A stretch of DNA of 64,000 bases. It comes from Bacteroidetes bacterium GWF2_35_48 (GTDB lineage: Bacteria > Bacteroidota > Bacteroidia > Bacteroidales > GWF2-35-48). The position numbers and the translations under genes are program-made. Positions 14,121 through 63,424 of this stretch are shown here, piece after piece; within the stretch, counting starts at the first letter, position 1, and every line of letters begins with the position of its first letter. The notes beneath the pieces were generated by a model. The model was not told the origin of the DNA. It searched no databases and was given only the letters and a program-made list of their open reading frames with translations. The stretch spans positions 1 to 64,000 of the forward strand of contig MEOG01000123.1 in assembly GCA_001769125.1 (NCBI GenBank), read 5' to 3'.

Positions 14121-14705
14121 ATGCGATTTTTTAAAACAAATTATAATAAACTTTCTGATACAGAACTCGTGGAATTATACCGTGTTCGCAATGACAATGC
14201 CTGTATTGGAGAGCTATTTGACAGATATGCACCCTTGATTTATGGTGTGTGCCTTAAATATCTGAAAAATCCGGATGACAGTAAAGATGCGTTGCAGCAA
14301 ATTTTTGAAAACCTCTTCAAAGACCTGAAACGTTCTTCAGTTCAAAATTTCAAAAGCTGGATTTATTCAGTAACTCTTAACCGATGCAGAATGATGCTGA
14401 GAAGCCGTCAAAGGAAATTAAAAAGAGAACAGGAAGCGGAAATTGACGTCATTATGCTGATGCACGATGAAAGCCATCCTTTGAATGAAGAATTTCTAAA
14501 TGAAATAAAAAATGCAATTTATGAATTGCAGGACAACCAAAAAATTTGCATTGAATATTTTTTCCTTCAACAAAAAAGCTATAAAGAAATCATTGAATTA
14601 ACAGGGTTCAGCTTTGATCAGGTAAAAAGCTTTGTGCAAAATGGCAAGCGAAATCTGAAACTTTTACTTGAAGAAAAATTTCAAAAAATAAAATCGGAAT
14701 TATGA
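14121..14705 (+). CDS. ECF-family RNA polymerase sigma factor
   Basis: 194 residues. Region 2 is visible as ELFDRYAPLIYGVCLKYLKNPDDSKDALQQIFENLFKDL, with the region 2.4 helix KSWIYSVTLNRCRMMLRSR. Region 4 is weaker: YELQDNQKICIEYFFLQQKSYKEIIELTGFSFDQVKSFVQNGKRNLK. It overlaps the next gene by 4 bp (ATGA), the usual arrangement for an ECF sigma and its membrane partner. Its promoter does not show the GCAACC/CGTCTT motif found near the second sigma gene. Confidence 0.92.
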   Translation: MRFFKTNYNKLSDTELVELYRVRNDNACIGELFDRYAPLIYGVCLKYLKNPDDSKDALQQIFENLFKDLKRSSVQNFKSWIYSVTLNRCRMMLRSRQRKLKREQEAEIDVIMLMHDESHPLNEEFLNEIKNAIYELQDNQKICIEYFFLQQKSYKEIIELTGFSFDQVKSFVQNGKRNLKLLLEEKFQKIKSEL

Positions 14706-15775
14706 GCTATAAGCCTACAAATAAACTCGACGATTATCTGAAAGGAAATCTGGATAAGAAATCGAAAGAAAATTTTCAGAAAACACTGGCTGAGGATAAA
14801 TTTCTTTCTGATGCGACAGATGGTTTTGAAGAATTTCCCGGTACAGAGAAAAATATCGAAGAGGTTAAAAGAAAAATTATTAATAAAAATTCTGTGAAAG
14901 CGACTGCTTCATCTAAACTGATGCTGATAGGGACAATCTTTTTGTTTGTAGTTGCAGTAAGTCTTTCTGTATATAGAATGTTCTCAAAAAATGAAAAAAT
15001 AAAAACAGATTCTGATAATCAAAAAACAGAAAAATTTTCTCCTTTCTTAATTTCTGATGAAGAAATAATTGAGGCTGTTCCAATGGATTCCCATAAACAA
15101 ATACGATACATTAACACGATAAAAAATCAGTCGGTTTCTCTACAAGAAAAAAAAACAGAACCTGAAATTCTTGAAAAAATAGAAGCAAAAAAAATATCAG
15201 AAATAACCAACGACCCGCTATTTGTCTCAGAAAAAGAGTTGAATAAAAAAAGAATTTCAGTGTCAAATCATCCACTGCTTTACATCTATAATCTTAAGGT
15301 TGTTGATTATTCTAAAGTATATAAAAACAATTTGAAAACAAACAATCTTTCAGGACTTGATTCAAAATATGAAAATAATATTTCTCAAAAAAGTGATGCG
15401 GAGTCTGATAAAACTTATGTAACATATAACTATTTTCTAACTGCTTCTCTCGATAAATATAAAAATAATGATTTTAAAAATTCCTTACGCGATTTTTCTG
15501 TTATTCTCAAACATTTTCCGGAAGACCTGAATGCATATTTTTATGGAGGCTTGTGTTTATATAATTTACAAAAATTTGATCGTGCTATACAATTTTTTAA
15601 TCAGGCTATAGAAAACCCTGTCAATAGCTTTTATCAGGAAGCCCGCTGGTATAAAGCACTTTCGATGATTCAGAAAAACGAAAATGAAGATGCAAAAAAC
15701 TTACTCAAAGAAATAATTGACGAAGAAGGGTTTTATGCAAGCAAAGCAGAGGAGAAGGTTAAAGCACTACGGTAA
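14702..15775 (+). CDS. Membrane TPR protein, putative anti-sigma partner
   Basis: 357 residues. A short cytoplasmic N-terminus (LDDYLKGNLDKKSKENFQKTLAEDKFLSDATDGFEEF) resembles zinc-less anti-sigma openings in Bacteroidota. One membrane helix (about residues 71-91) is followed by a variable periplasmic linker and two or three C-terminal TPR units (NYFLTASLDKYKNNDFKNSLRDFSVILKHFPEDLNAYFYGGLCLYNL). Overlap with the sigma gene suggests it holds the sigma factor at the membrane. That is inference; no anti-sigma domain is certain. Confidence 0.75.
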   Translation: MSYKPTNKLDDYLKGNLDKKSKENFQKTLAEDKFLSDATDGFEEFPGTEKNIEEVKRKIINKNSVKATASSKLMLIGTIFLFVVAVSLSVYRMFSKNEKIKTDSDNQKTEKFSPFLISDEEIIEAVPMDSHKQIRYINTIKNQSVSLQEKKTEPEILEKIEAKKISEITNDPLFVSEKELNKKRISVSNHPLLYIYNLKVVDYSKVYKNNLKTNNLSGLDSKYENNISQKSDAESDKTYVTYNYFLTASLDKYKNNDFKNSLRDFSVILKHFPEDLNAYFYGGLCLYNLQKFDRAIQFFNQAIENPVNSFYQEARWYKALSMIQKNENEDAKNLLKEIIDEEGFYASKAEEKVKALR

Positions 15776-15791
15776 AAAATAAAAAACAAAG

Positions 15792-17045
15792 ATGAAAACC
15801 CTTTGCATTCTGGGATTTTTAGTTTCATCATGGCTTTTTGTTTCTGCGCAGAAACAGAGCATGAAGATATACGGAAAAATTTTTGATGCAGCTACCGATT
15901 CGACAATATCTAATGCTTACATTAAAATAGGAGAAGGAAAAGCCGGAGTCTCTTCAGATAAAAATGGAAATTTTTCTTTCATAATAAATTCGTTTCCTTT
16001 AAAAATCACAATCTCCCATGTTGCTTATGAAGAACAAAAAATCATTCTGCACGAACCAGCAAAAAATGGATTGAAAATTCAAATGAAGCCATCGAGTAAG
16101 CTGGTAAAAGAAGTTGTTATTTCATCAGAAAAAGTACAAAATCTAACCAAAAAAAAACTTTTTGCAGTTAATGATTATGAATTTTCGGGGCAAGATATCC
16201 TTATGCTTGTTTATGATTATAATTTCTCTGAGAAAAAAAATCCATGGCTTGTGTTAATGAATTCTTATGGAGATACAATATGCAAAAATTTTATAGGAAA
16301 AGATGGAAGTCTTTTTAAAGACTGTACAGATCAAATTCATCTGATAACAAAAAACGAGGCATGGCAAATATTTATTGATGAAAAAAAAATTACACTTGCG
16401 CATCCAACAGAAAAAAAAGCTTTTTTCAATGCGATGGAACCATGCATAGCAAGCATTGGCACAAATTATTTTCTAAAAAAATATTCACACGGGCAACAGG
16501 TTTTAAACTACATTATTGCAAATACAAATGATACAAGCTATGAAACCATGCGCGTTATAGCCGATCATGCCGGATTGAAAATGCTGGTTTCACGAAATCG
16601 TTTTTTTGCAATGGGAGCAAATCCGCCAACAGATGCAGATTTAAGATTTGAAGAGATGTGTTTCTCCGGTCCTGTATTTGCGCCATTATGCAGACTTGAT
16701 GATGAAATTCTGATTTTCAATTTTGTTGACTCAAAGCTTGAATTCTACTCCCCTGAAGGCATTCATGAAAAAGATATTCTGATTAATTTTCATAAATCCT
16801 CTCATTGGAAAGAAGAAATAATAAGCGATGAAAGATGCAAAAAAGTTTACACCCTTTTTGTAAGAGATGGAATTTCTTCTTTACGTGAAATTAATCTTGA
16901 AAACGGAAAATTAATGCAGACAATAAAAATTCCGAAATTCAAATTTATTGAGAAAATAAAAATCAATGACAATAAGCTTTATTTCTTATACAGAAAAACT
17001 GCATCCGACGAATTGAAAGCGATATATGTTATGAGCTTGGAGTAA
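15792..17045 (+). CDS. Secreted protein with CarboxypepD-like N-terminal domain
   Basis: 417 residues. A signal peptide (MKTLCILGFLVSSWLFVSAQ) precedes a carboxypeptidase-regulatory-like domain (MKIYGKIFDAATDSTISNAYIKIGEGKAGVSSDKNGNF..., residues 24-105), followed by about 300 residues with no recognised family, possibly a beta-propeller-like repeat. It lies 16 bp after the TPR protein, so the three genes from 14121 probably form one operon in which the sigma factor and its partner control an envelope protein. Confidence 0.75.
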   Translation: MKTLCILGFLVSSWLFVSAQKQSMKIYGKIFDAATDSTISNAYIKIGEGKAGVSSDKNGNFSFIINSFPLKITISHVAYEEQKIILHEPAKNGLKIQMKPSSKLVKEVVISSEKVQNLTKKKLFAVNDYEFSGQDILMLVYDYNFSEKKNPWLVLMNSYGDTICKNFIGKDGSLFKDCTDQIHLITKNEAWQIFIDEKKITLAHPTEKKAFFNAMEPCIASIGTNYFLKKYSHGQQVLNYIIANTNDTSYETMRVIADHAGLKMLVSRNRFFAMGANPPTDADLRFEEMCFSGPVFAPLCRLDDEILIFNFVDSKLEFYSPEGIHEKDILINFHKSSHWKEEIISDERCKKVYTLFVRDGISSLREINLENGKLMQTIKIPKFKFIEKIKINDNKLYFLYRKTASDELKAIYVMSLE

Positions 17046-17218: not shown

Positions 17219-17420
17219 TTTGCGAGAGTAGAGGATATTAATGAAATCATATTAAAAAAATCAGTACTTGCACTAATATAAAATATCTGATTTTATATTT
17301 ACTTTTGAAAAATAAGTTTAGATTTTTTTTTTGGTTTAAAAACATAGACCTTTAAAAGCCCGTTTTGCCGGGATTTTCATAAAAAATTATAAAATAAAAA
17401 AAGTTTAGATTATTTGGAAA

Positions 17421-17447
17421 GCAACCTTTTTTGTATATTTTCGTCTT
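17421..17447 (+). promoter_or_regulatory. Candidate ECF-type promoter of the adhesin operon
   Basis: GCAACC (17421-17426) and CGTCTT (17442-17447) are 15 nt apart, 41 nt before the ATG at 17488. The motif resembles ECF promoters (AAC in the -35, CGTC in the -10) and recurs at 25406, 29788 and 63308. Confidence 0.5.
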
Positions 17448-17487
17448 TTAACTACTGAATATCCCGTTAAAAAATTAAAATTATTTT

Positions 17488-17904
17488 ATGATGGCACTGA
17501 TTATAACAATCTTATATCTATTTAACCCCTTGCAAATTCCTGATCAATGGCAGGTATTATTTGAAAACGATCAAATAAAAATTGAAAAAATGCAGTCTGA
17601 TTGTTTAGATGCTGTGAATGGCATCAATCAAAGTAAAATTTTATTAAAATTTACTAATAAAACTACTGCTAAACTAAAGATTAGTTATGAAAAAAAACTC
17701 ATCTACACTTTAGATAGCGGAAATGATAAGGATACTAAAACAGACAGAACTTATGATGTAATACTGGAAGCAGGGCAAAGCAAACAGGGGACATGTGAAA
17801 ACCGCGACAAAAATCTGTTTGTTTTTGAAAAATATCTTGATAGGAGTGCTTCGGAATTAAAGAAATATGAGTTAATAAATATTAAGACACAAACTGTTGA
17901 ATAA
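17488..17904 (+). CDS. Hypothetical exported protein upstream of the adhesin
   Basis: 138 residues, not recognised. A hydrophobic start (MMALIITILYLFNP) suggests export. The body is beta-strand-like, with KILLKFTNKTTAKLKISYEKKLIYTL and a single Cys in QGTCEN. It lies 6 bp upstream of the giant adhesin and behind the candidate ECF promoter, so it may be an assembly or secretion partner of the adhesin. No function is assigned. Confidence 0.75.
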   Translation: MMALIITILYLFNPLQIPDQWQVLFENDQIKIEKMQSDCLDAVNGINQSKILLKFTNKTTAKLKISYEKKLIYTLDSGNDKDTKTDRTYDVILEAGQSKQGTCENRDKNLFVFEKYLDRSASELKKYELINIKTQTVE

Positions 17905-17910
17905 ATTACT

Positions 17911-20900
17911 ATGAAAAAACTGCTTTTATTCATTTGTTCCATTATTATTATAGGCAACAAGCTATATTCTCAATGTACAGTAACAGCAATAAGTTCAACG
18001 GATACTGTAATATGTGGAAGTTGCGCTACGCTATCTGCTTATGGAGAGGGTCAAGGTCTGCAAATTTTTAGTGAAAATTTCAATAACTGGCAACCCACAG
18101 GATGGGCTTTCACACAGCAGGCAACATTCACAAACCCCTGTAGCCCCGGCGGTGTTGATGGTTCTCCTCATTTGTGGATGGGAAATTCATCCGGTGTTCC
18201 GCGTACGCTACAGACCTTATCTTATGATTTATCTACTGCACAGGCTGGTGTTTCTATTTGTTTTGATATGCTGTTTGCAACGCAGGGAGATGCAGCCCCT
18301 TGTGAAGGACCAGATGAACCGGATGAAGGAGTTGCGCTTCAGTATTCAATTGATAATGGTAATACGTGGATTACAATTAATTATTTTGATCCGAATGGCG
18401 GTAATGATCCCAATCTCGTAAACTGGCATCACTGGTGCTTTAATCTTCCTCCTGCAGCAATAACATCCAATACACAGATTCGCTGGTTTCAAGACAATGA
18501 TTCCGGAGCAGATTATGACCACTGGGGCATTGATAATGTACAAATTTATTTTAACGACCCAACCTACGTTATTTCCTACACGCATGATAATTACAGTCTG
18601 GGCGCTAGCGGTGGAGTTGATCCCTATCCCGTATGCCCGCAACAAAATACATGGTATGTTGTACAAATGACCAATGGAACCAGCTATTGCTACGATTCTG
18701 TTAAAGTAAATGTAAAAATGCCGACAATAGTTGCAAATGCAGGACCTGATGTATCTGTATGCCCGGGTCAATGTACTACGCTTAATGGGGAAGCAACTGT
18801 TATTGTAAGTCCTGCCAAAAATCCAACTTACGAAAATAACCAGCTTACTGTTGTTACGGGAGGTACTTCAACTGTGAATATAAATATTACAGACTTGAAC
18901 CAGCAACAAGTTTTGCCGGGAGCAATACAAAGCGTTTGCATAAATGGGTTTACGTTTTCAGGCACACAATTTTGTACTGATTTCAGCGGCTGTAATTGTA
19001 ACGGAACAACAATCCCGATGGGTCAAACCTGTAATCTTGACATCAGTAGTTTTAATGTTTGGCTTCGATCTCCTAATGGCTGCGAAATATTACTTGTTCC
19101 GCAGGGAGAAGCATCAGGTACCAGTTATCCGCAACTTTGTTTTGTTCCATCAGGAGGACAAAGTATAACAGCAGCAAATTTTCCGGCAGCAGGAAACTGG
19201 AATCCGCAGGAATCTCTTTTGGGAATGGACGGATGTGATGCAAATGGCGTATGGTCTGTAGAATTCGATGCGCCCGGAGGACTGGGATTTGGAATGGGTT
19301 CTTTCACTGGCTGGTCTATTACATTTGACGATCCAGAAATCAGTTACCCCGGAGAATTTACATGGACTCCAACAACAAACATGACAGGCGCAACAACTTT
19401 AACCCCTAATGTTTGTCCTGACAATACAACAACCTACACAATCTCAGTTTCCGATACAGCAGGATGTGTAACAGAAACAGACGATGTTGTAGTTTCAATA
19501 GGAAGCTGCTGCAACTTTTCTATTTCTGCTGTAACGACACAACCTTCATGCGGACTTACAAACGGAGCCATTACTATTACAGTTTTACCTTCGGGAAATT
19601 ATTCTTATGCTTGGAGTAACAGTTCTACTTCGCAAAACCTGAGCAATCTTGGTACGGGTACTTATACTTTAACAGTTACTGATATTGCCGGAAACTGCAC
19701 CAATGACACCACAATTACGCTATCCAACCCGAGCGCTCCCACGCTGACATTAAATGCTACGGATGCAAGCTGTGGAGTATCGGATGGTGATATAACTTCA
19801 ACTGTTACCGGAGGAACCGGAACGATAACTTACTTGTGGTCTAATGGAAGCACTGCTACCAATTTAACAGGCCTTGGCGCAGGTTCTTATAGTCTTACTG
19901 TAACAGATGCAAACAGTTGTTCCGCTATTGCTTCTGCTGACATCAGCGCTCCAAATGCTCCTGTATTAGTAGTTTCTTCAAACGATGCTTTATGTGGAAA
20001 TAATGATGGCTCTGCATCTGTAAGTGTCAGTGGGGGGCAAACTCCCTACAATTACAACTGGTCAAATTCTCAGACGACATCTTCAATCTCTGGTCTTGCA
20101 GCAGGTTCTTATACCGTAACTGTTACAGATGGTGCTTCATGTACCGTAACAGCAACAGCAAATGTTAGTAGTATCGGTGGACCCACAATTAATATCACAA
20201 CAAATGATGCTTCCTGCGGAGGGAATAATGGCTCTGCTACAGTTACAGCAAGTGGCGGAACAAGTCCCTACACCTATTTGTGGAGCAATTCTGCAAACAC
20301 TCAAACCATTTCATCTCTAATTGCAGGCACTTACAATGTAACAGTTACAGATGGAAGCACCTGTATCGCAACCGGAACAGCAACAATAAACACAACAAGC
20401 CCACCAAGTGTAACTGTAAGTACAAACTCTGTTACCTGCGGATATTCAAGCGCAGATGCCACTCCAACCGGAGGCACTGCACCTTACACCTTTGCATGGT
20501 CTAATAATATGACGGGACAAAGCATCAACGGACTTGTGTCGGGGAATTACAGCGTTACAGTTACGGATGCAAGCGGTTGTACAGGTACTGCTACATTTAC
20601 AGTTGATCCTCCGGATCCTTTGGTTGCTACAGCATCCATTACTTCAAACTTCAATGGATTTTCAGTGTCCTGTAACGGCGCAACAGATGGTTCTGCTACA
20701 GTTAATGCAATAGGAGGAACTCCTCCGTTTTCATATTTATGGGAATCCGGAGAAACCACGCAATCCCTGACAGGAATTGGAGCTGGTATATATAATGTTG
20801 TTGTAACCGATATTAATAATTGCTATGATACTTCTACCGTTACTCTAACGGAACCTCCGGGTGTTGGAGTAACTATAACAACAATATCGGATATAAATTG

Positions 20901-22557
20901 TTTTAACGGATCAGACGGTTTAATTGACATAAGCATTGCAGGAGGAACATTGCCTTATACTTATATTTGGAGCAATGGAGCAAATACTGAAGATTTGAAT
21001 AATATACCTGCCGGATCGTATTCGGTAACAATAACGGATGCAAACGGGTGCAGCACTTCAGCTAACACGAGTTTGAATCAGCCAACAGCAATGACTATGA
21101 CACTTACCGGAACAAATATTATCTGTAACGGACAAAATAACGGGAGTACAAGCCTTACTGTAAGCGGGGGAGTTGAGCCCTACCAATATTTCTGGTCGAA
21201 CCAGCAAAGCGCAGAAGACTTAAATAATCTATATGCCGGCATCTATTCTGTAACAATTCAGGATGCGAACAACTGTGAAGTTTTTGGTTCTATTTCTATA
21301 ACGGAACCAAGCGGAATATTTCTTGCTCCTCCTGAATCGGCAGTAATTTGTAAAAATACAGATCATACACTTTCAGCAGGAGCAAGCGGAGGAACTCCGC
21401 CTTATACATTCTACTGGAATGGAAATTCAGGAGGTACTACAAATATTATCAACATTTCGCAGAATACGGCTTACAGCGTTTATGTTGTGGATGCGGCAGG
21501 TTGCTCCAGTAATACAAGTAATATTACCATGGGAATTGTACCGGATATTTTCATGAATGCTTATGCTTATGATGATACAATTTGCGTTGGATCATCAACC
21601 CAGATACACACCAATGTTACAGGAGGAACAGGAGGTCCTTATTATCTTTATGGAAACAATAATGAACTCATAACGCCACCTTACACGGTAACGCCATTGC
21701 ATACTACATCTTATGTGTTAACGGCAAGAGATAATTGTAACAATACTGCAAGAGATACAGTTACTATTTATACTGAATCGCTTCCAATGGCAGCATTTTC
21801 ATCAGATGTAGGAGGAGCTTGTGTCCCTTTTGAAGTTACGTTCAACTATCAGGGAAATGAACCGGGAGCAAGTTATTTGTGGGAATTTGGCGAGCAGCAA
21901 TTTATTTCTACTGCGGCTAATCCTACGCATACCTATTCAATTCCCGGCAACTACAGCGTTACATTAACAATAACTAATTCCGCTGGCTGTTCAAGCAGCA
22001 TTACGAATTACAACATGATCAGCGCTTATGCAATTCCAACATCTTCTTTTATGTTTTCACCTAATAATGCCAGTATTTTAAACCCCATGATACAATTTTC
22101 AAATCTATCGGAGGGAGCAAATTCATATATATGGTCATTCGGAGACGGGGACTCATCAAATGTTGAACATCCACTTCATCCCTATCAAGGGAAAGGTCAA
22201 TATACGATAATGCTGATTGCAATTACACAACATAATTGCAAAGACACGTCCAGCCAAAAACTTCAAATAAGGGATGAGTATACATTTTATGCTCCAAGCG
22301 CAATTTCTCCCGATGGAAATTCTTTAAATGATGAATTCAGAGTATATGGAAATGGCATTGATAAAAGTAAATTTGAATTATTTCTTTATGATCGGTGGGG
22401 CGAATTAGTTTTCAACAGCAAAGATATAGAAAAGGGATGGGATGGGACATATATGAGCAAAAAAGCGCAAAGCGGTTCCTACGTGTGGTATGTCAGTTAC
22501 AAAGATTTATCAGGAGTGGGACATCAGGTAAGCGGAAGTGTTACGTTGATACGATAG
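17911..22557 (+). CDS. Giant T9SS-exported adhesin with SprB and PKD repeats
   Basis: 1548 residues. Signal peptide (MKKLLLFICSIIIIGNKLYSQ); a reelin-like module about 50-213; a proprotein-convertase P-like domain about 345-475; eight SprB-type repeats about 546-1133, each of the form C(G/N)...(D/N)G...Y.W.NG...L..G.Y.V.V.D...C; Ig-like modules; two PKD domains from about 1290 (YLWEFGE, YIWSFGDGDSS); and a C-terminal CHU_C / gliding-motility-associated domain (YAPSAISPDGNSLNDEFRV...VTLIR) from about 1455. That last domain is a type B T9SS signal, so the protein should cross the outer membrane and stay at the cell surface. SprB proteins carry gliding adhesion; whether this cell glides cannot be told here. 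Confidence 0.92.
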   Translation: MKKLLLFICSIIIIGNKLYSQCTVTAISSTDTVICGSCATLSAYGEGQGLQIFSENFNNWQPTGWAFTQQATFTNPCSPGGVDGSPHLWMGNSSGVPRTLQTLSYDLSTAQAGVSICFDMLFATQGDAAPCEGPDEPDEGVALQYSIDNGNTWITINYFDPNGGNDPNLVNWHHWCFNLPPAAITSNTQIRWFQDNDSGADYDHWGIDNVQIYFNDPTYVISYTHDNYSLGASGGVDPYPVCPQQNTWYVVQMTNGTSYCYDSVKVNVKMPTIVANAGPDVSVCPGQCTTLNGEATVIVSPAKNPTYENNQLTVVTGGTSTVNINITDLNQQQVLPGAIQSVCINGFTFSGTQFCTDFSGCNCNGTTIPMGQTCNLDISSFNVWLRSPNGCEILLVPQGEASGTSYPQLCFVPSGGQSITAANFPAAGNWNPQESLLGMDGCDANGVWSVEFDAPGGLGFGMGSFTGWSITFDDPEISYPGEFTWTPTTNMTGATTLTPNVCPDNTTTYTISVSDTAGCVTETDDVVVSIGSCCNFSISAVTTQPSCGLTNGAITITVLPSGNYSYAWSNSSTSQNLSNLGTGTYTLTVTDIAGNCTNDTTITLSNPSAPTLTLNATDASCGVSDGDITSTVTGGTGTITYLWSNGSTATNLTGLGAGSYSLTVTDANSCSAIASADISAPNAPVLVVSSNDALCGNNDGSASVSVSGGQTPYNYNWSNSQTTSSISGLAAGSYTVTVTDGASCTVTATANVSSIGGPTINITTNDASCGGNNGSATVTASGGTSPYTYLWSNSANTQTISSLIAGTYNVTVTDGSTCIATGTATINTTSPPSVTVSTNSVTCGYSSADATPTGGTAPYTFAWSNNMTGQSINGLVSGNYSVTVTDASGCTGTATFTVDPPDPLVATASITSNFNGFSVSCNGATDGSATVNAIGGTPPFSYLWESGETTQSLTGIGAGIYNVVVTDINNCYDTSTVTLTEPPGVGVTITTISDINCFNGSDGLIDISIAGGTLPYTYIWSNGANTEDLNNIPAGSYSVTITDANGCSTSANTSLNQPTAMTMTLTGTNIICNGQNNGSTSLTVSGGVEPYQYFWSNQQSAEDLNNLYAGIYSVTIQDANNCEVFGSISITEPSGIFLAPPESAVICKNTDHTLSAGASGGTPPYTFYWNGNSGGTTNIINISQNTAYSVYVVDAAGCSSNTSNITMGIVPDIFMNAYAYDDTICVGSSTQIHTNVTGGTGGPYYLYGNNNELITPPYTVTPLHTTSYVLTARDNCNNTARDTVTIYTESLPMAAFSSDVGGACVPFEVTFNYQGNEPGASYLWEFGEQQFISTAANPTHTYSIPGNYSVTLTITNSAGCSSSITNYNMISAYAIPTSSFMFSPNNASILNPMIQFSNLSEGANSYIWSFGDGDSSNVEHPLHPYQGKGQYTIMLIAITQHNCKDTSSQKLQIRDEYTFYAPSAISPDGNSLNDEFRVYGNGIDKSKFELFLYDRWGELVFNSKDIEKGWDGTYMSKKAQSGSYVWYVSYKDLSGVGHQVSGSVTLIR

Positions 22558-22576: not shown

Positions 22577-24967
22577 TCAGATAATTTTTATACCCATCAA
22601 CGTAATATCATCTACTTGAGCATAAGTTGTTGTATTTTCTGAATCTTTATATTTCATCCAGTTATCCAAGGCTTGCTCAAATTTATCTTTCTGGACAGAC
22701 ATATCTGAAACGCTATTTTCGAGTATGAATTTTTTCAGATTCTTTGAAAGAAATTTCTTTCCTTTAGATCCGCCAAACTGATCCTCATATCCATCACTCT
22801 TGAGATAAATTACATCTCCTTTATTTAATTGTATACTGTGATTCGTGAAGGGCTTCATGTTTTCGTAGATTCCTATGGGTTGTTTGTCTCCCTTCACCTC
22901 ATAAAGGGTTTCGGGAGATAAATCTGCCTTTACCTCATGCAGGGGCTCCGAGGATGTAAAGACAGGGTAATACCCCGTCTTTACTATGTAGAGGGGATTA
23001 TTCGCCCCGGCAAATTGCATTTCGAGAGTTTCTGGATTTATTGCAACAAAAGCAATATCAAGACCATCGCGAATATTTTCTATGCCACCCGAAAGATGCG
23101 ACTGGTGCAAAGATTTTATCACATATTTACGTAACTCATCAAGCGTTGAAGCAGCAGTGATTACGTCTTCCCTTGAAATAATTTCATTCAGATACGTAAT
23201 TGCCAACATGCTCATAAACGCTCCGGGTACCCCATGACCCGTACAATCTGCAACAGCAACAAAAATCCACTTGTTCTTTTTTGCAAACCAATAAAAATCG
23301 CCGCTCACAACATCTTTGGGCTTAAAAATTATAAAATAGTCAGAGCTTAATTTTTCTAAAACAGATTCATCAGGAATAATTGCTTTCTGAATACGGAGCG
23401 CATAATGAATGCTATCCATAACTTCTCTGTTTTTTATTTCCAGTAACTGCTTCTGTGTTTCAATTTCGTCTCTTTGCGTTTGAATTTCCTCATTCTTCTG
23501 ATTCAGTTCTTCATTTCTTTCAAGTATCTGATCGCGCTGGGTTTCAATTTCATCGCGCTGTGCAAGTATTTCCTCGTTTTTCTGATTTAATTCCTCGTTT
23601 TTTGTTTCTATTTCTTTTTTCTGTGCAGCAAGTAAAATATTAGCCTTTTTCTTTTGTCTATAGCTGTAAAAAGCGTATAAAAACATTAACAAAACCAAAA
23701 TAAATCCTGAGATAAATGCGAGCAACTGTGTTCGTTGCTGGCTAATTCTCGCCTGCTTGGTCTCAATATCTGCTTTTTGAAGTTCAATTTGTTTTTGTCT
23801 TTTTTCTGTTTGATATTTTGCATCCAATTCGCTTACAAATTGATCCCTATCTCGGCTTTCCATGCTGTCTTTTGCCCATATAAACATCTTTGTATAGTTA
23901 AGAGCAGTTTTATAGTCGCCCTTCATCTCACTTGCAGTGGATAAATGATTGTACCCAAATTTCAACTGTTCAATCAATTCTTCCTCACGAGCTATTTGTA
24001 TCCCCTTTTTAGCCATTTCTATACCCTCATCAATTTTATGCTGCTCGATATATATACTGGCAATACATATATAAGCATTTGAGAGAACAGCCCTGTGATC
24101 ATGCTTTAATCCAATTTCAAGCGTTTTTTTGAAACTCTCTAAAGACTTATCCTTATCATTCATGCCGTAATAGAGATTTCCCAAATTCAAATAAATATCT
24201 GCAACACCAATTGCATCATTAAGTTTTAATTTTATCGGAAGCGCCTTTTGATAAAAAAACATTGATTTGTCAAATAATCTCATTTCATTATAAATTCCCC
24301 CTAGATTGTTATAGCATGTAGCAATACCGAATTCATCCTTCATAATTTGAAACCCATCCAAAGCTTTCAGATAATACTCTTCTGCTTTTAGATATTCTTG
24401 CTGAACAGAAAAAACATTCCCTATATTAAGCAGACAAGTTATTGTTCCGCGCTTATTACCTGAATTTTCAAAAATTTTCAGCGCTTTCATATACCACGAT
24501 ATAGCCTCATCTCCCCTGAATTGCTCCTGATGCACAACTCCAATATTGGTGTAACATTTAGCCATTTCGTTCAGATTTTGCATTTCTGTAAAAAAGGATA
24601 GAGCTTCATCGTAATATTCAAGAGCTTTTTCGTACTTTCCGTTGTAGTAATAAAATGTTCCGATACTTTTAATACTTTCAGCAAATAATAATTTATAGGT
24701 ATTTAATGGCTGTGTTTTTGCCCGAATATTTGATCTGGCTAAATCTTTAGCTTTATGATACCAGAACAAAGCAGTATCTTCTGAAGAGTATTCAAATAAA
24801 TCTGCAATATCAAAATAGGTTGTAATTCTGACTGAATCTGAATTTGCATTTTTCAAAGATAATAATAGGGAGTCATAGGTATTTATCTGAGAAAAACATG
24901 CTGTTAATCCATTAAAAAACAATAAAGCCCATAACAATAATATAGGTTTAAAATATCTCATTAACAT
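22577..24967 (-). CDS. TPR sensor with SpoIIE/PP2C phosphatase domain
   Basis: 796 residues. N-terminal signal/anchor, about seven TPR units (residues 30-345), a membrane helix (about 395-417), a heptad coiled coil built of near-repeats of NEELNQKNEEI and QRDEIETQ (about 420-525), and a SpoIIE-type PP2C domain (SGDFYWF, VAVADCTGHGVPGAFMSML, GANNPLYIV, LKSDGYEDQFGG). These proteins dephosphorylate anti-anti-sigma-like partners in response to periplasmic input. Within the phosphatase, between GANNPLYIV and GDKQPIGIYE, lies an extra stretch of about 28 residues encoded by palindromic DNA (22891-22990). It is convergent with the adhesin. Confidence 0.88.
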   Translation of the reverse strand: MLMRYFKPILLLWALLFFNGLTACFSQINTYDSLLLSLKNANSDSVRITTYFDIADLFEYSSEDTALFWYHKAKDLARSNIRAKTQPLNTYKLLFAESIKSIGTFYYYNGKYEKALEYYDEALSFFTEMQNLNEMAKCYTNIGVVHQEQFRGDEAISWYMKALKIFENSGNKRGTITCLLNIGNVFSVQQEYLKAEEYYLKALDGFQIMKDEFGIATCYNNLGGIYNEMRLFDKSMFFYQKALPIKLKLNDAIGVADIYLNLGNLYYGMNDKDKSLESFKKTLEIGLKHDHRAVLSNAYICIASIYIEQHKIDEGIEMAKKGIQIAREEELIEQLKFGYNHLSTASEMKGDYKTALNYTKMFIWAKDSMESRDRDQFVSELDAKYQTEKRQKQIELQKADIETKQARISQQRTQLLAFISGFILVLLMFLYAFYSYRQKKKANILLAAQKKEIETKNEELNQKNEEILAQRDEIETQRDQILERNEELNQKNEEIQTQRDEIETQKQLLEIKNREVMDSIHYALRIQKAIIPDESVLEKLSSDYFIIFKPKDVVSGDFYWFAKKNKWIFVAVADCTGHGVPGAFMSMLAITYLNEIISREDVITAASTLDELRKYVIKSLHQSHLSGGIENIRDGLDIAFVAINPETLEMQFAGANNPLYIVKTGYYPVFTSSEPLHEVKADLSPETLYEVKGDKQPIGIYENMKPFTNHSIQLNKGDVIYLKSDGYEDQFGGSKGKKFLSKNLKKFILENSVSDMSVQKDKFEQALDNWMKYKDSENTTTYAQVDDITLMGIKII
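22956..22984. repeat. In-frame palindrome inside the SpoIIE gene
   Basis: GTAAAGACAGGGTA (22956-22969) pairs 13 of 14 with TACCCCGTCTTTAC (22971-22984). It is translated in the minus frame as part of the extra segment near residues 661-671. Next to it are two imperfect direct repeats coding SSEPLHEVKAD and SPETLYEVKGD. Confidence 0.7.
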
Positions 24968-25020: not shown

Positions 25021-25272
25021 TTATTCCTCCGTTTCTTTTTTGGCTTTCGGCTCTTTTTTTGCTTTGGGTTCTTTGGGTTCTTTTGGCTCTTTTGGCTCTT
25101 TTTTTGCCTTTGGTTCTTTAGCTTTTGTTTCAACCACTTCCTGACTCACTACAACAGCTTCTTCCTTTTTAACCGCTCCTTTATAAGCTAGTTTCACTTT
25201 TCTTTTTCTTGATTTTCCATAAGAACCCTGAAAAATCTTGCCTCTTTTTGACTTTTTATCACCTTTTCCCAT
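25021..25272 (-). CDS. 30S ribosomal protein THX with Lys-Pro-Glu tail
   Basis: 83 residues. The first 25 (MGKGDKKSKRGKIFQGSYGKSR...) are the THX signature typical of Bacteroidota, a tiny protein bound at the head of the small ribosomal subunit. Residues 40-83 are an added low-complexity tail of EPKAKKEPKEPKEPK units with net positive charge, coded by near-identical DNA repeats. The tail probably contacts rRNA or is disordered. It is monocistronic, with its own terminator. Confidence 0.88.
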   Translation of the reverse strand: MGKGDKKSKRGKIFQGSYGKSRKRKVKLAYKGAVKKEEAVVVSQEVVETKAKEPKAKKEPKEPKEPKEPKAKKEPKAKKETEE

Positions 25273-25405
25273 AAAATTTTATATAAGCTTGTTCGTTAAT
25301 TATTTATTTCTCTTTTATTTATTGTAAATTTGCAATTTGCAAAATAAACAAAATTCTTACTAAAAAACAATTTTTTACCTTTATAAAAAAAAATTAAAGC
25401 GTCAG

Positions 25406-25433
25406 GCAACGTTCTGACCCAAAAAATTGTCTG
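25406..25433 (+). promoter_or_regulatory. Candidate ECF-type promoter, sigma gene (autoregulation)
   Basis: GCAACG (25406-25411) and TGTCTG (25428-25433) with a 16-nt spacer, 18 nt before the ATG at 25451. It differs from the other three sites at one base in the -35 and two in the -10. If real it points to autoregulation of the sigma gene. The -35 lies in a small hairpin (GTCAG...CTGAC). Confidence 0.4.
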
Positions 25434-25450
25434 TAATAATAAAGCATAGC

Positions 25451-25996
25451 ATGCAAACAGAAAATCAGTTAATAAAAGACTGTCTGAACAAGCGCAAGGG
25501 GGCTATGGATGAATTGTATAAAAGATTTGCTCCCAAAATGTTCGGTATTTGTTTACGTTATGCGAAAAGCAAGATGGAGGCTGAGGATTTTATGCAGGAG
25601 GGATTTATAAAAGTTTTAACAAATTTAGATTCCTTTAGGTGTGATGGTTCTTTGGAAGGTTGGATACGCAGAATTATTGTGAACAATATCATCAACTCTT
25701 ACAGGCAGAAAAAGCCGTACTTTGAAGATATTGACACATGTAAAGAAGCCTATCGTGAATCGGTAGACAGTGGAATTCTGTCCGATCTCACAGCAGAAGA
25801 GCTATTGCGCTTCGTACAAGAGCTGCCTGAAGGATACAAAGTTGTTTTTAACCTTTATGTAGTGGAAGGATATCAGCATAAAGAAATTGCTGAAATGCTG
25901 AATGTAAGCGAAAGCACCTCTAAAACCCAGCTATTGAAAGCCAGAAAAGCATTACAGGAAAAAATTAAAAGTGTAGTTTATGAGCAGGCAATTTGA
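25451..25996 (+). CDS. ECF-family RNA polymerase sigma factor
   Basis: 181 residues from the ATG at 25451; an in-frame TTG at 25427 would add 8 residues and overlap the putative -10. Region 2: ELYKRFAPKMFGICLRYAKSKMEAEDFMQEGFIKVLTNLDSFRCDGSLEGWIRRIIVNNIINSYRQ. Region 4: LPEGYKVVFNLYVVEGYQHKEIAEMLNVSESTSKTQLLKARKALQ, a clear helix-turn-helix. This is the common Bacteroidota ECF type. It overlaps the next gene by 17 bp, so the pair should be a sigma factor and its regulator. Confidence 0.95.
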   Translation: MQTENQLIKDCLNKRKGAMDELYKRFAPKMFGICLRYAKSKMEAEDFMQEGFIKVLTNLDSFRCDGSLEGWIRRIIVNNIINSYRQKKPYFEDIDTCKEAYRESVDSGILSDLTAEELLRFVQELPEGYKVVFNLYVVEGYQHKEIAEMLNVSESTSKTQLLKARKALQEKIKSVVYEQAI

Positions 25997-27806
25997 AAAC
26001 AGGTTTGATGAGCTTTTTAATGAAAAGTTCAGGGATTTCGAAGTAAATCCACCTGAGCACATTTTATCAAATATTAAATCTTCTACAGGAAATACATCTG
26101 TTGCAGAAAAACTCAGTTCCTTTTTCAGAAACAATTTATCATTTGTACTGATAAGCATTTGTGTGCCTGCCGCTGTTGTTGCCATTTATTCATTTTCACG
26201 TACCAATGAAGCCATATCTTCTACTACAAAAAATTTAAATACTGAAATTTCTTTAGTGAAAGAAAATCTCAATCAAAATATTCCTGAAAAACAAAATAAT
26301 GTAAGTCCTAATAATAATAATTCTGAAAATACAAGACCTGCACCCATAATCAAATCAGATGAAACTTGTGGACTTTCTTATGCGCTTCAAGCAAGTAATA
26401 ACAATGGAAAATGGACATCTGATGCAAATGTTTTGATAGACAAACCATCGTCATCGAACACAGAAATTAAAGTTACAAAAGAAGGCTTATATTCTTTTGC
26501 ATGGATACCGGAAGATGCAAACCTGCCTATTGAAAAGACAAACATTCGTTTTTATGCTGCGACAGAAACCAAAGCAAAAGATTTTTCTGTTTGCGGAAAT
26601 GAGTTTGATTTGAAGGCTCAGGCCAGATTCGGCAAAGGAAGCTGGAATCAGGTAAAAGGAATTGAATATTCAGAAATGAACAACCCATTAACCCATGTTA
26701 TATATCAAGGGACAGGACTGGTTAATTTAATATGGAAAGATTATGGGAAATGCGCTTCCAGCGATACATTTAAAGTGCTATTTCAGGAAAAACCTGATGC
26801 ATTTTTTACTACTTCCACAACAGCTTGCACAGAAAGCCCTGTTGAGCTTACGGCAAATAACAAATCATTATTCCATTACGAATGGGAAATCGAGGGCAGT
26901 GAAGCATCAAACCTTCAGGCTTCAAAAGTTAATGTTAGCTGGGAAAAAGCGGGTAAATATAATGTAAGTCTGAAAGTATGGAAAAATGAAAATTGCTTTT
27001 CCATTTCAAATAAAATAATTGAGTTGACAGATGCGCCGAAAGTAAGTTTTGAAACAGTACCTGCAAGCTGCAATAAAGGAGGCTCTATCACAGCAAAACC
27101 GTTAAATAAAGTTGCATTTTACAAGTATTTTTGGATGAATGAAAGTAACCCGGCAGGAAACGTACGGGATAATCTTCAAGCCGGAAACTATAGCGTTATT
27201 GTTACTGATAAAAATAATTGTAAAAAAGAATACAAGGTTGCGCTTGAAGGAACAATGCCCATAAAAGCCGATTTCTACCATTCGAATTACGAACCAACAC
27301 CTCCCGCGACAGTACATTTTGTCAATACAACAACTATAGGCAACAAACCGTCGAAGCAAACAGATGAATTACAATATTCATGGGACTTTGGAGATGGCAA
27401 CAAATCAGACGAATTTACTCCGAAGCATATTTATAGTTCCAGTGGCAATTATACTGTTAAGTTTACAGTAACAGATAAAAACGGTTGCAGTAACTCATAC
27501 TCCAATAACGATATCGTTATTGGCAATACAGCTTCCGGCACCTCAAATGTATTTACGCCAAACGGAGACGGTCAAAATGATTTATTCTATGTTAAAGCCA
27601 ACGCATTATCAAATTTCCACGCTGTAATTACCAATGCACGCGGAGAAAAAGTTCATGAATGGACAAACCCTGAATTAGGCTGGGATGGTACAATTAACGA
27701 TAGCGGAGCACAAGCCGCGACGGGATTATATTATTATACTGTTACTGCAACAACAAGCGATGGAAAACCTTATTCTGATAAAGGAATGGTTCATTTAAGA
27801 AAATAA
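25980..27806 (+). CDS. Membrane protein with anti-sigma-like N-terminus, PKD and T9SS type B domain
   Basis: 608 residues. Residues 1-48 (FENRFDELFNEKFRDFEVNPPEHILSNI) are cytoplasmic and placed like the anti-sigma segment of ECF partners. One membrane helix at about 50-72. The outside part has Ig-like strands, an SprB-like module (about 360-422), a PKD domain (YSWDFGDGNKSDEFTPKHIY, about 440-517) and a CHU_C domain (SNVFTPNGDGQNDLFYV...MVHLRK, 520-608). A T9SS sorting domain on a protein anchored by an internal helix and coupled to a sigma factor is unexpected. It may sense T9SS function. Confidence 0.85.
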   Translation: MSRQFENRFDELFNEKFRDFEVNPPEHILSNIKSSTGNTSVAEKLSSFFRNNLSFVLISICVPAAVVAIYSFSRTNEAISSTTKNLNTEISLVKENLNQNIPEKQNNVSPNNNNSENTRPAPIIKSDETCGLSYALQASNNNGKWTSDANVLIDKPSSSNTEIKVTKEGLYSFAWIPEDANLPIEKTNIRFYAATETKAKDFSVCGNEFDLKAQARFGKGSWNQVKGIEYSEMNNPLTHVIYQGTGLVNLIWKDYGKCASSDTFKVLFQEKPDAFFTTSTTACTESPVELTANNKSLFHYEWEIEGSEASNLQASKVNVSWEKAGKYNVSLKVWKNENCFSISNKIIELTDAPKVSFETVPASCNKGGSITAKPLNKVAFYKYFWMNESNPAGNVRDNLQAGNYSVIVTDKNNCKKEYKVALEGTMPIKADFYHSNYEPTPPATVHFVNTTTIGNKPSKQTDELQYSWDFGDGNKSDEFTPKHIYSSSGNYTVKFTVTDKNGCSNSYSNNDIVIGNTASGTSNVFTPNGDGQNDLFYVKANALSNFHAVITNARGEKVHEWTNPELGWDGTINDSGAQAATGLYYYTVTATTSDGKPYSDKGMVHLRK

Positions 27807-27970: not shown

Positions 27971-29056
27971 ATGAAAAAGTTTTTTACCCTTCTGGTAATT
28001 TTACAATTATGCAGCATTGCTATCTTTTCACAGCTTGAGGCTACTATTACTGACTCTACCATGGCCGGTGAAAATAATTTACCTTTTATAGTAACAGGAA
28101 CTTTTTTCCTTCCTGACGGATCCGGTCAATCTTATAGCACAAACATAAATTTCGATGCGTTTCCTTCCGGTCAGCTTATTACTGATGCCGGTGATATTTT
28201 TTCCATTGGAATTAATATGGAACATTCATACGCAGGTGATTTAACCATGAAAATTATTTGTCCGAACGGTCAGTACACCAATCTGCTGCTTTATCCGAAT
28301 GGACTGGGATCCTCATATCTCGGAGAACCGATTGATAGCGATCAAAATATGAATCCAGGAACGGGTTATTTTTATAACTGGATCATGGATGCAAGTACTG
28401 TAATGATACCAAATACTACTATTCCAGCGGGAAATTATCTGCCAGTTGACCCCATGAGCTTTGGCGGACTAGTGGGCTGCCCGCTGAACGGTACATGGGG
28501 TATTCAGGTTACTGATAACTTGAACTCTGATAACGGCTATATTTTTTCCTGGCAAATTAATTTCAATCCGCTGATTATACCCTCTGGCTATAATTCGGGA
28601 AGTGCTACAGTAACTGCAAGCGGTGGTGTTCCTCCGTACACATACTACTGGAGCAACGGAGTCACAACCCCTACGATTAACCATCTGGCCCCGGGAATCT
28701 ATTTTGTGACGGTTTACGACAGCAATACAGGAAAAGTTCCGAATACAGCAACGAATCAGGTAACCATAACACAATCAACGACCTCTACTGTTAATAGAAT
28801 GTCTGAAGATGGAGTTAATATTTCTTTCAGCTCTGGAACAAACAACCTTCAGGTTTCTGTTAATACGAATAAAGAATCCAGTGCCGATATCCATATATAT
28901 AATAAACTTGGGCAAACTGTTTATGCAGGTTCACGGTTTTTAGGGAAAGGAAAAAATTATTTTCAGATAGATACTGCAGATTTGAGTACAGGACTGTATT
29001 TTTTTAGAATAGAAGAAAAAGGAGCGCAGCCCGCTATATATAAATTTGTAAAATAA
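27971..29056 (+). CDS. Secreted P-domain protein with T9SS type A sorting domain
   Basis: 361 residues. Signal peptide (MKKFFTLLVILQLCSIAIFSQ); a P-like domain about 55-200 (HSYAGDLTMKIICPNGQYTNLLLYP ... LNGTWGIQVTDNLNSDNGYIFSWQINF), similar to the P module of the 1548-residue adhesin; one SprB-like repeat (VTASGGVPPYTYYWSNGVTTPTINHLAPGIYFVTVYD); and a type A sorting domain at 280-361 (ADIHIYNKLGQTVY...TGLYFFRIEEKG...YKFVK). It should be exported and then cleaved or attached to A-LPS. There is no catalytic domain, so a binding role is likely. Confidence 0.88.
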   Translation: MKKFFTLLVILQLCSIAIFSQLEATITDSTMAGENNLPFIVTGTFFLPDGSGQSYSTNINFDAFPSGQLITDAGDIFSIGINMEHSYAGDLTMKIICPNGQYTNLLLYPNGLGSSYLGEPIDSDQNMNPGTGYFYNWIMDASTVMIPNTTIPAGNYLPVDPMSFGGLVGCPLNGTWGIQVTDNLNSDNGYIFSWQINFNPLIIPSGYNSGSATVTASGGVPPYTYYWSNGVTTPTINHLAPGIYFVTVYDSNTGKVPNTATNQVTITQSTTSTVNRMSEDGVNISFSSGTNNLQVSVNTNKESSADIHIYNKLGQTVYAGSRFLGKGKNYFQIDTADLSTGLYFFRIEEKGAQPAIYKFVK

Positions 29057-29660: not shown

Positions 29661-29787
29661 TGTAGAAAAAAAGTTCTCGTATTAATAAATAATCAGTGAT
29701 AACGTAAGCAAAAAAAATCTATTCTAAAGATTTAATAAAGGGCAAAACTAACAAACCTATACAAATAAAGAAATAATCTTATTCGAG

Positions 29788-29814
29788 GCAACCGATTAAA
29801 TAAAAAAGAGTCTT
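29788..29814 (+). promoter_or_regulatory. Candidate ECF-type promoter
   Basis: GCAACC (29788-29793) and AGTCTT (29809-29814), spacer 15 nt, 36 nt before the ATG at 29851. Same -35 and spacing as the adhesin-operon site at 17421. Confidence 0.5.
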
Positions 29815-29850
29815 ATTTTTGAACGTTTAACTTAAATTAATTTTAGTATC

Positions 29851-30249
29851 ATGAAAAAAATATTCGCTTTAACTGCTATTATTTTAATGAGCTTTATGGC
29901 TTTTACTCAAAACAATGAAAAGTTAATTCCCGTGTTTGATGATGCGGGTCTTGTAATTAAACACCAAAATGATAAAGCTGTAGTAACTTTTAAAGTTAAA
30001 GCATCCGAGGCACAGCTTGATGCATGTAAGACAAACGCAGCAAAACGCGCAAATTTTTCCAGCCTTACTGTTTCTGAAACAAAGGATAGCGAAGGTTTTT
30101 ACACTTTTACTGTTTCTTCAACAAAACATACAAGTATGGATCACGACAAGCAGTACTTTGTAAAAGTTCTTATGTCAATGGGTATGGAGACTTTTATGTA
30201 CAAAGGGGTGGAATATGAAGCGCAGAAGTTTCCCGGAATAGTAAAATAG
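29851..30249 (+). CDS. Small secreted protein of unknown function
   Basis: 132 residues with a signal peptide (MKKIFALTAIILMSFMAFTQ). The body has alternating strands and helices (KAVVTFKVKASEAQLDACKTNAAKRANFSSLTVSETKDSEGFYTFTVSSTKHTSMDHDKQYFVKVLMSMGMETFMYKG), suggesting a small alpha/beta fold, possibly ferredoxin-like. No T9SS sorting domain, so it is probably periplasmic. It sits behind a candidate ECF promoter. Not recognised otherwise. Confidence 0.75.
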   Translation: MKKIFALTAIILMSFMAFTQNNEKLIPVFDDAGLVIKHQNDKAVVTFKVKASEAQLDACKTNAAKRANFSSLTVSETKDSEGFYTFTVSSTKHTSMDHDKQYFVKVLMSMGMETFMYKGVEYEAQKFPGIVK

Positions 30250-63246: not shown

Positions 63247-63307
63247 TATTCTATTCTGAAAGGAGAAAATTATTAAAAAACAAATGTGATAAAATTTGTT
63301 TTGTCAA

Positions 63308-63335
63308 GCAACCTTTTTAGTAAAAAAAGCGTTTT
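63308..63335 (+). promoter_or_regulatory. Candidate ECF-type promoter
   Basis: GCAACC (63308-63313), 16 nt, CGTTTT (63330-63335). AAGCAACCTTTTT is identical to the 17421 site over 13 bases. It lies 89 nt before the ATG at 63425, farther than at the other sites. Confidence 0.4.
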
Positions 63336-63424
63336 AATAATATTTAAAGCAATGAATTATTTGCAATTAGAAAAATTTATGTTATTTTTCGGACTTGTTA
63401 ACCTGTAAAACCATTCTAAAAATT

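Follow-up and report, generated by a model that had tools for sequence, protein, structure and literature searches.

We consider it probable that a 608-aa membrane protein encoded by Bacteroidetes bacterium GWF2_35_48 is the anti-sigma factor of the ECF sigma factor whose gene its own gene overlaps, that it is a T9SS-tailed relative of the Dma architecture, and that the T9SS brings its tail to the outer membrane. This reading draws on predicted architecture, conserved gene pairing, exchange of tails among relatives, operon linkage, and promoter distribution, all of which are apparent from sequence. The pair lies in a 64,000-nt stretch of DNA (contig MEOG01000123.1, positions 1 to 64,000; hereafter the window), where the following features were identified.

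25405..25434, forward strand: candidate ECF promoter for autoregulation, GGCAACGTT-N13-TTGTCT, immediately upstream of the sigma start codon
25451..25996, forward strand: ECF sigma factor, 181 aa counted from ATG (Pfam/NCBIfam)
25980..27806, forward strand: candidate T9SS-tailed, Dma-like anti-sigma factor, 608 aa (HMM calls, HMM of the barrel-type N-module, and AlphaFold model)

The sigma factor has both region 2 and region 4 (Pfam Sigma70_r2, 1.1e-16, and Sigma70_r4_2, 2.2e-16). It matched NCBIfam TIGR02937 with 106 bits (cut-off, 42.9), and its match to TIGR02985 (92.9 bits) fell below the cut-off of 126.4. We infer from its architecture that it belongs to group ECF21. The ORF has an alternative opening at TTG 25427. 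The regulator start overlaps the sigma stop by 17 nt, and the two overlapped or lay no more than 15 nt apart in 69 of the 79 surveyed loci with a readable partner. Neither a two-component system nor a TonB-dependent receptor is encoded in the operon. Two other genes near the pair are also found in a congener (locus L062). One encodes a homolog of ribosomal protein Thx with a long KEPK-rich tail (25021-25272), divergent from the sigma gene; the other, upstream of the pair in both genomes and split into two frames in the congener, encodes a protein with TPR and SpoIIE-type phosphatase domains (22577-24967) that is possibly a further regulator.

The regulator was divided into five parts.

25980..26123, forward strand: cytoplasmic N-module, residues 1-48, two helices, F..LF..KF..FE..PP....I (HMM and model)
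26136..26204, forward strand: transmembrane helix, residues 53-75 (hydropathy, 2.28; helix in the AlphaFold model)
26211..26366, forward strand: disordered tether, residues 78-129 (pLDDT <50)
26367..27521, forward strand: consecutive Ig-like/PKD domains, residues 130-514 (Pfam PKD, AlphaFold model, and Foldseek)
27543..27791, forward strand: CHU_C/T9SS type B C-terminal domain, residues 522-604 (Pfam, NCBIfam, and conserved residues)

A preliminary description, made from the DNA letters and ORF translations, had proposed an ECF sigma factor overlapped by a membrane protein with an anti-sigma-like N-terminal segment, a helix, Ig/PKD domains, and CHU_C, and the overlap, the HMM matches, and the AlphaFold model bear this out. 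The SprB module that it also listed received no Pfam call, residues 367-422 being SprB-like by eye only. The AlphaFold model (mean pLDDT of 71, from a 29-row alignment) placed helices at residues 4-18, 26-36, 41-51, and 53-75, followed by a disordered stretch, a series of beta-sandwich domains, and a confident C-terminal domain. PKD was called by Pfam at 2.3e-20, and the top Foldseek matches for the Ig/PKD part were fragments of Aureispira GhpA, a grappling-hook protein from the surface of a member of the Bacteroidota. Residue counts suggest that the tether and extracytoplasmic domains could in principle span the periplasm.

The tail matched CHU_C at 3e-14 with 53.4 bits (Pfam cut-off, 27) and TIGR04131 with 36.1 bits (NCBIfam cut-off, 35), and the former score lies within the 36 to 78 bits seen for real cargo of this and related genomes. 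Residues F525, P527, W568, G570, Y584, and G602 are kept at ≥90% among 29 tailed regulators. A chance match to CHU_C is ruled out by the agreement of two libraries and by this conserved signature. The C-terminal domain had no match among PDB sequences. Judged from the helix position, a cleavable Sec signal peptide is missing from the regulator, and the membrane helix stands behind the 48-residue N-module instead. Pfam gave no FecR match, and no FecR or RsgI domain was called. The genome encodes SprA and 29 PorP/SprF genes. None of the latter adjoins the regulator, the nearest on its contig being at C123:89549, and in this it differs from many type B cargo genes of the same genome.

The family was surveyed in 60 genomes of the order, from which 80 loci were fetched, 79 of them with a readable partner. 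The sigma factor served as the query, so loci were chosen without regard to the tail of the partner. Almost all partners begin with an N-module of the form F..L..kL..fE..PP...W..I...L; a single membrane helix at about residue 50 and then a low-complexity linker come next. With an HMM built from barrel-type N-termini only, all 30 CHU_C-type N-termini scored higher than the 1% shuffle threshold and 28 scored higher than all 3,000 shuffles; the reverse test succeeded for 53 of 54. The N-module of the window scored 29.8 bits with the barrel-type HMM, compared with 11.8 for the best of 3,000 shuffles. NCBIfam "anti-sigma factor" models matched 8 of 83 members weakly (E ≤ 0.01); where inspected, these matches covered the W..I..L and membrane-proximal part and scored below the curated cut-offs. 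In one locus (L162, G032:C34:4263-4817), sigma factor, N-module, and membrane helix share a single reading frame and a separate barrel gene follows, which is either a Dma3-like fusion or a stop codon lost in the MAG. Tandem N-modules, two or more before the membrane helix, were seen in L052, L068, L115, L127, L135, L137, and L159.

Behind this common N-terminus the tails differ. Among 83 proteins scanned with Pfam, 31 carried OMP_b-brl_2, 28 CHU_C, one OmpA, and one Por_Secre_tail. By motif and alignment, 25 of the 79 blind-survey loci had CHU_C-like tails and at least 39 had barrels; at least one CHU_C tail was present in 22 of 46 genomes, and both kinds were present in 12. CHU_C in most homologs is thus ruled out. 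The preliminary description had staked its proposal on CHU_C prevailing, and taken literally that expectation fails, with 54 of 79 partners lacking the domain; most of these carry an outer membrane beta-barrel instead. Parsimony on the sigma tree required no fewer than 10 switches between barrel and CHU_C, on a quick tree with mostly weakly supported forks and with CHU_C classes assigned by motif (28 members confirmed by Pfam). The genome of the window has four such pairs: two CHU_C tailed (in the window and on C129), one barrel tailed (C64), and one on C119 whose barrel is encoded by a separate gene. A single-sequence AlphaFold model of a barrel paralog gave no usable fold (pLDDT of 32).

The motif CAACGTT-N13-TTGTCT precedes the sigma gene in both the window and the congener. 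Across the family, AAC-N17-19-GTC was found upstream of 52 of 94 sigma genes; a control stretch within the following gene gave 9, and shuffles gave 8.75. This distribution suggests autoregulation throughout the family, from a promoter of the general form CAAC-N16-18-GTC. An exact match to CAACGTT-N12-14-TTGTC occurs once in the 6-Mb genome, so targets of the window sigma factor beyond its own operon depend on the family position weight matrix (PWM). The PWM was built from 39 sites of other genomes, leaving out the genome itself and its congener, and was used to scan 837 kb chosen around T9SS genes, with operons compared within those same regions. It led 15 operons, 3 of them sigma operons; column-permuted PWMs led 0.4 on average and 2 at most. 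T9SS cargo was encoded in 9 of the 12 other operons, that of the SprB adhesin at 17911 among them (two more run past the stretch read), versus 56 of 256 operon heads (Fisher p = 8e-5). T9SS core genes were absent from the motif-led operons of the 837 kb. In the window, the scan and the domain searches gave the following.

17420..17452, forward strand: strong family-type promoter, AGCAACC-N-TTCGTCT, leading 17488-22557 (score of 22.8 with sites of its own genome left out)
17488..17904, forward strand: small protein, 138 aa, first gene behind the 17420 promoter
17911..22557, forward strand: T9SS type B adhesin with nine SprB repeats, PKD, and CHU_C (Pfam/NCBIfam)
27971..29056, forward strand: T9SS type A cargo (P_proprotein, SprB, Por_Secre_tail), encoded by the gene that comes next on this strand, 164 nt after the regulator
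29787..29819, forward strand: weaker family-type promoter (score of 18.1), before a small secreted protein without a T9SS domain (29851-30249)
63307..63340, forward strand: family-type promoter (score of 18.4), upstream of the genes for a small secreted protein (ATG 63425) and for a 2,153-aa type B cargo protein running past the window

Scores of 20 or more are expected 0.12 times per 64 kb. The preliminary description had envisaged a candidate ECF promoter in front of a T9SS adhesin, and such a candidate, at 17420, precedes the adhesin gene at 17911. The adhesin gene at 27971 is ruled out as a promoter target, since its best upstream score was −2.1 and it does not adjoin the regulator in the congener. 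Sigma subclades differ in the base before GTC and in the spacing (TGTC/12 in the window group, CGTC/11 in the C129 group, and mostly AGTC/12 in the C64 group). By this rule, which draws on few sites, the 17420 promoter (CGTC/11) would fit the C129 sigma factor better than that of the window, and three other cargo-like operons (on C88, C124, and C113) would fit the latter. A second ECF sigma gene, a membrane protein gene, and a third gene lie upstream of the SprB operon (14121-17045). We also observed a recurrent cassette behind family promoters, in which the gene for a small secreted protein (128 to 177 aa) directly precedes a giant SprB/CHU_C cargo gene (17488-17904 in the window, C123 at ATG 63425, L247, L265, and L275). 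One of the small proteins was tested and had no Pfam family; they are possibly dedicated chaperones or partners of the giant cargo.

T9SS C-terminal domains were encoded by 16 of 46 genes directly downstream of the pairs, compared with 5 of 89 other neighbors (p = 2e-5, uncorrected for kinship), on MAG pieces with simple ORF calling. On conservation of the pair with T9SS genes, which the preliminary description had suggested surveying, downstream cargo and promoter links of the sigma family are supported; the CHU_C tail is carried by a minority. The type of tail and the type of downstream cargo also agreed: CHU_C pairs were followed by five type B genes (L120, L124, L168, L169, and C129) and one type A gene, that of the window, whereas barrel pairs were followed by 0 type B and 13 type A genes (p = 5e-4, Pfam checked), a match for which a few lineages may account. 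The clearest genetic tie between a T9SS-tailed anti-sigma factor and type B cargo is the C129 operon (G000:C129:20970-32554; L049, L282), which encodes a sigma factor, a CHU_C-tailed anti-sigma factor, a 215-aa protein, and a 2,987-aa SprB/CHU_C type B adhesin. Its gene order was found again in L170 and L173 as far as the contig pieces extend. The adhesin gene lies immediately behind the regulator gene in L168 and L169; in L117, L120, L122, and L124, a gene of approximately 425 aa, possibly for a protease of the pathway, stands between the CHU_C-tailed anti-sigma gene and the cargo gene; the L120 copy was checked and encodes an M16 peptidase. Cargo enrichment, the match between tail and cargo type, and the promoter distribution together support a tie of this sigma family to the T9SS.

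For the T9SS-tailed anti-sigma factor that we favor, the proposed mechanism is as follows. Residues 1-48 would hold the sigma factor at the inner membrane, which the protein is predicted to cross once, and the tether, Ig/PKD domains, and CHU_C tail would extend to the outer membrane. There the tail may take the type B route, via SprA and a PorP/SprF-like barrel, so that the C-terminus is placed or fixed at that site, in a role parallel to that of the built-in beta-barrel of its relatives. A surface signal, or pulling or occupancy at the secretion site, would then abolish sigma binding, probably via proteolysis. The freed sigma factor would transcribe its own operon from the predicted CAACGTT-N13-TTGTCT promoter, and together with its paralogs it would transcribe T9SS cargo operons from the computed family promoters.

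Several readings of what the regulator does come into question. It is quite possible, if short of probable, that the protein is a one-piece receptor at the cell surface, with CHU_C serving solely as an anchor and the Ig/PKD domains sensing an extracellular ligand such as a glycan or surface contact. The exchange of tails with outer membrane barrels favors an anchor; with barrels in most of the other partners, the tail looks foremost like an outer membrane or surface destination. Dma2 has been proposed to act as a glycan sensor at the surface (PMC13088901), and a type B CTD protein remains on a PorP-like outer membrane barrel with its CTD intact (PMC9143113), so that by analogy a CHU_C tail could achieve by contact what a fused barrel does. 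Against a surface receptor, no ligand-binding domain of known specificity was found in the regulator, and some tailed relatives (e.g., L124 and L160) consist, by alignment, of little more than tether and CHU_C.

A less likely, though real, possibility is that the regulator reports secretion status. It would masquerade as type B cargo; its being engaged by the T9SS, or stalling there, would pull on or free the sigma factor, so that cargo synthesis follows secretion capacity. The cargo-like CHU_C score, the family promoter in front of T9SS cargo, and the match of tail and cargo type, which favors a tie with the matching secretion branch, agree with such a reporter, and there is a precedent in PorA, a T9SS CTD protein that acts ahead of the sigma cascade PorXY-SigP (PMC7712824). 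Barrel-tailed relatives, which would not pass through the T9SS, are the majority and also adjoin T9SS cargo, and the absence of core genes from the motif-led operons counts against it as well. The more specific proposal of a secretion-coupled checkpoint, in which the T9SS-tailed anti-sigma factor queues as type B cargo and T9SS engagement frees the cargo-transcribing sigma factor, as a membrane-tethered counterpart of FlgM, strikes us as unlikely.

It is improbable that CHU_C is a plain Ig-like fold and that the regulator stays in the periplasm as an envelope stress sensor. The lack of a cleavable signal peptide and of a dedicated PorP/SprF neighbor would suit such a sensor, but the type B signature is retained in 29 divergent regulators. 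CHU_C tails were absent from 36 loci of SprA-less genomes, but also from 21 loci in SprA-positive members of the two families concerned. Every readable tail in these families was a barrel or a short form, whether or not SprA was present (the one motif match, in L212, looks like a barrel by eye). Nearly all genomes of the order (57 of 59) have SprA, making co-occurrence of tail and T9SS a weak comparison; the SprA-less genomes of the phylum sample, nearly all of one family, were left out. That the regulator is instead a coexpressed membrane protein or positive coregulator is very improbable, since the subthreshold NCBIfam anti-sigma matches are outweighed by the conserved overlap, the common N-module, the L162 fusion, and the experimental precedents of Dma1/Das1 and Dma2/Das2, which have the same architecture.

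The pair described here provides a concrete candidate for a regulator by which members of the Bacteroidota match the synthesis of surface adhesins and secreted enzymes to T9SS capacity or to conditions at the surface. It would exemplify a widespread anti-sigma architecture in which a beta-barrel or a T9SS address tag forms the outer membrane end; its operons also encode cargo of the corresponding type, and many cargo genes have a recognizable promoter. The Dma concept would thereby extend past Bacteroides, vesicles, and glycans.

We found no description of a T9SS-tailed anti-sigma factor in the literature searched, which did not include the original Dma paper (Pardue 2024 PNAS). Like Dma proteins, the regulator has an adjacent sigma gene, an N-terminal module, a single membrane helix, a disordered tether, and, putatively, a C-terminal outer membrane element, and sigma fusions occur on both sides (L162 here, and Dma3, which carries its own sigma factor as an N-terminal domain [PMC13088901]). 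Its N-module is common to the barrel-type partners surveyed here, the comparison with the Dma sigma-binding domain being at the level of these partners rather than of published Dma sequences. Unlike Dma, its tail consists of PKD and a T9SS type B domain in place of a beta-barrel, and its family is tied to T9SS cargo, whereas the published Dma roles concern vesiculation and polysaccharide loci. Since the barrel is one of the defining Dma features, we regard the protein as a T9SS-tailed variant and not as a Dma. With T9SS type B cargo such as SprB and PG1035 (CHU_C/TIGR04131) it shares PKD domains and an intact C-terminal domain, but it differs in its cytoplasmic N-module, uncleaved membrane anchor, and lack of an adjacent PorP/SprF gene. 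Transmembrane anti-sigma factors that read an outside signal are familiar from FecR/TonB-transducer cell-surface signaling and from RsgI; the regulator would resemble them in this, but no FecR or RsgI domain was called in it and its operon has no TonB-dependent receptor. FlgM, the anti-sigma factor of sigma28, is soluble and exported whole, and its export is tied to flagellar genes. If the regulator does report on secretion, both would be anti-sigma factors handled by the secretion machine whose substrates their sigma factors serve, although the regulator is membrane anchored and shares no homology with FlgM. In PorA-PorXY-SigP (PMC7712824), too, an ECF sigma factor that affects T9SS genes has a T9SS CTD protein above it in the pathway, but that protein is separate and acts through a two-component system, whereas here the CTD is part of the anti-sigma candidate itself.
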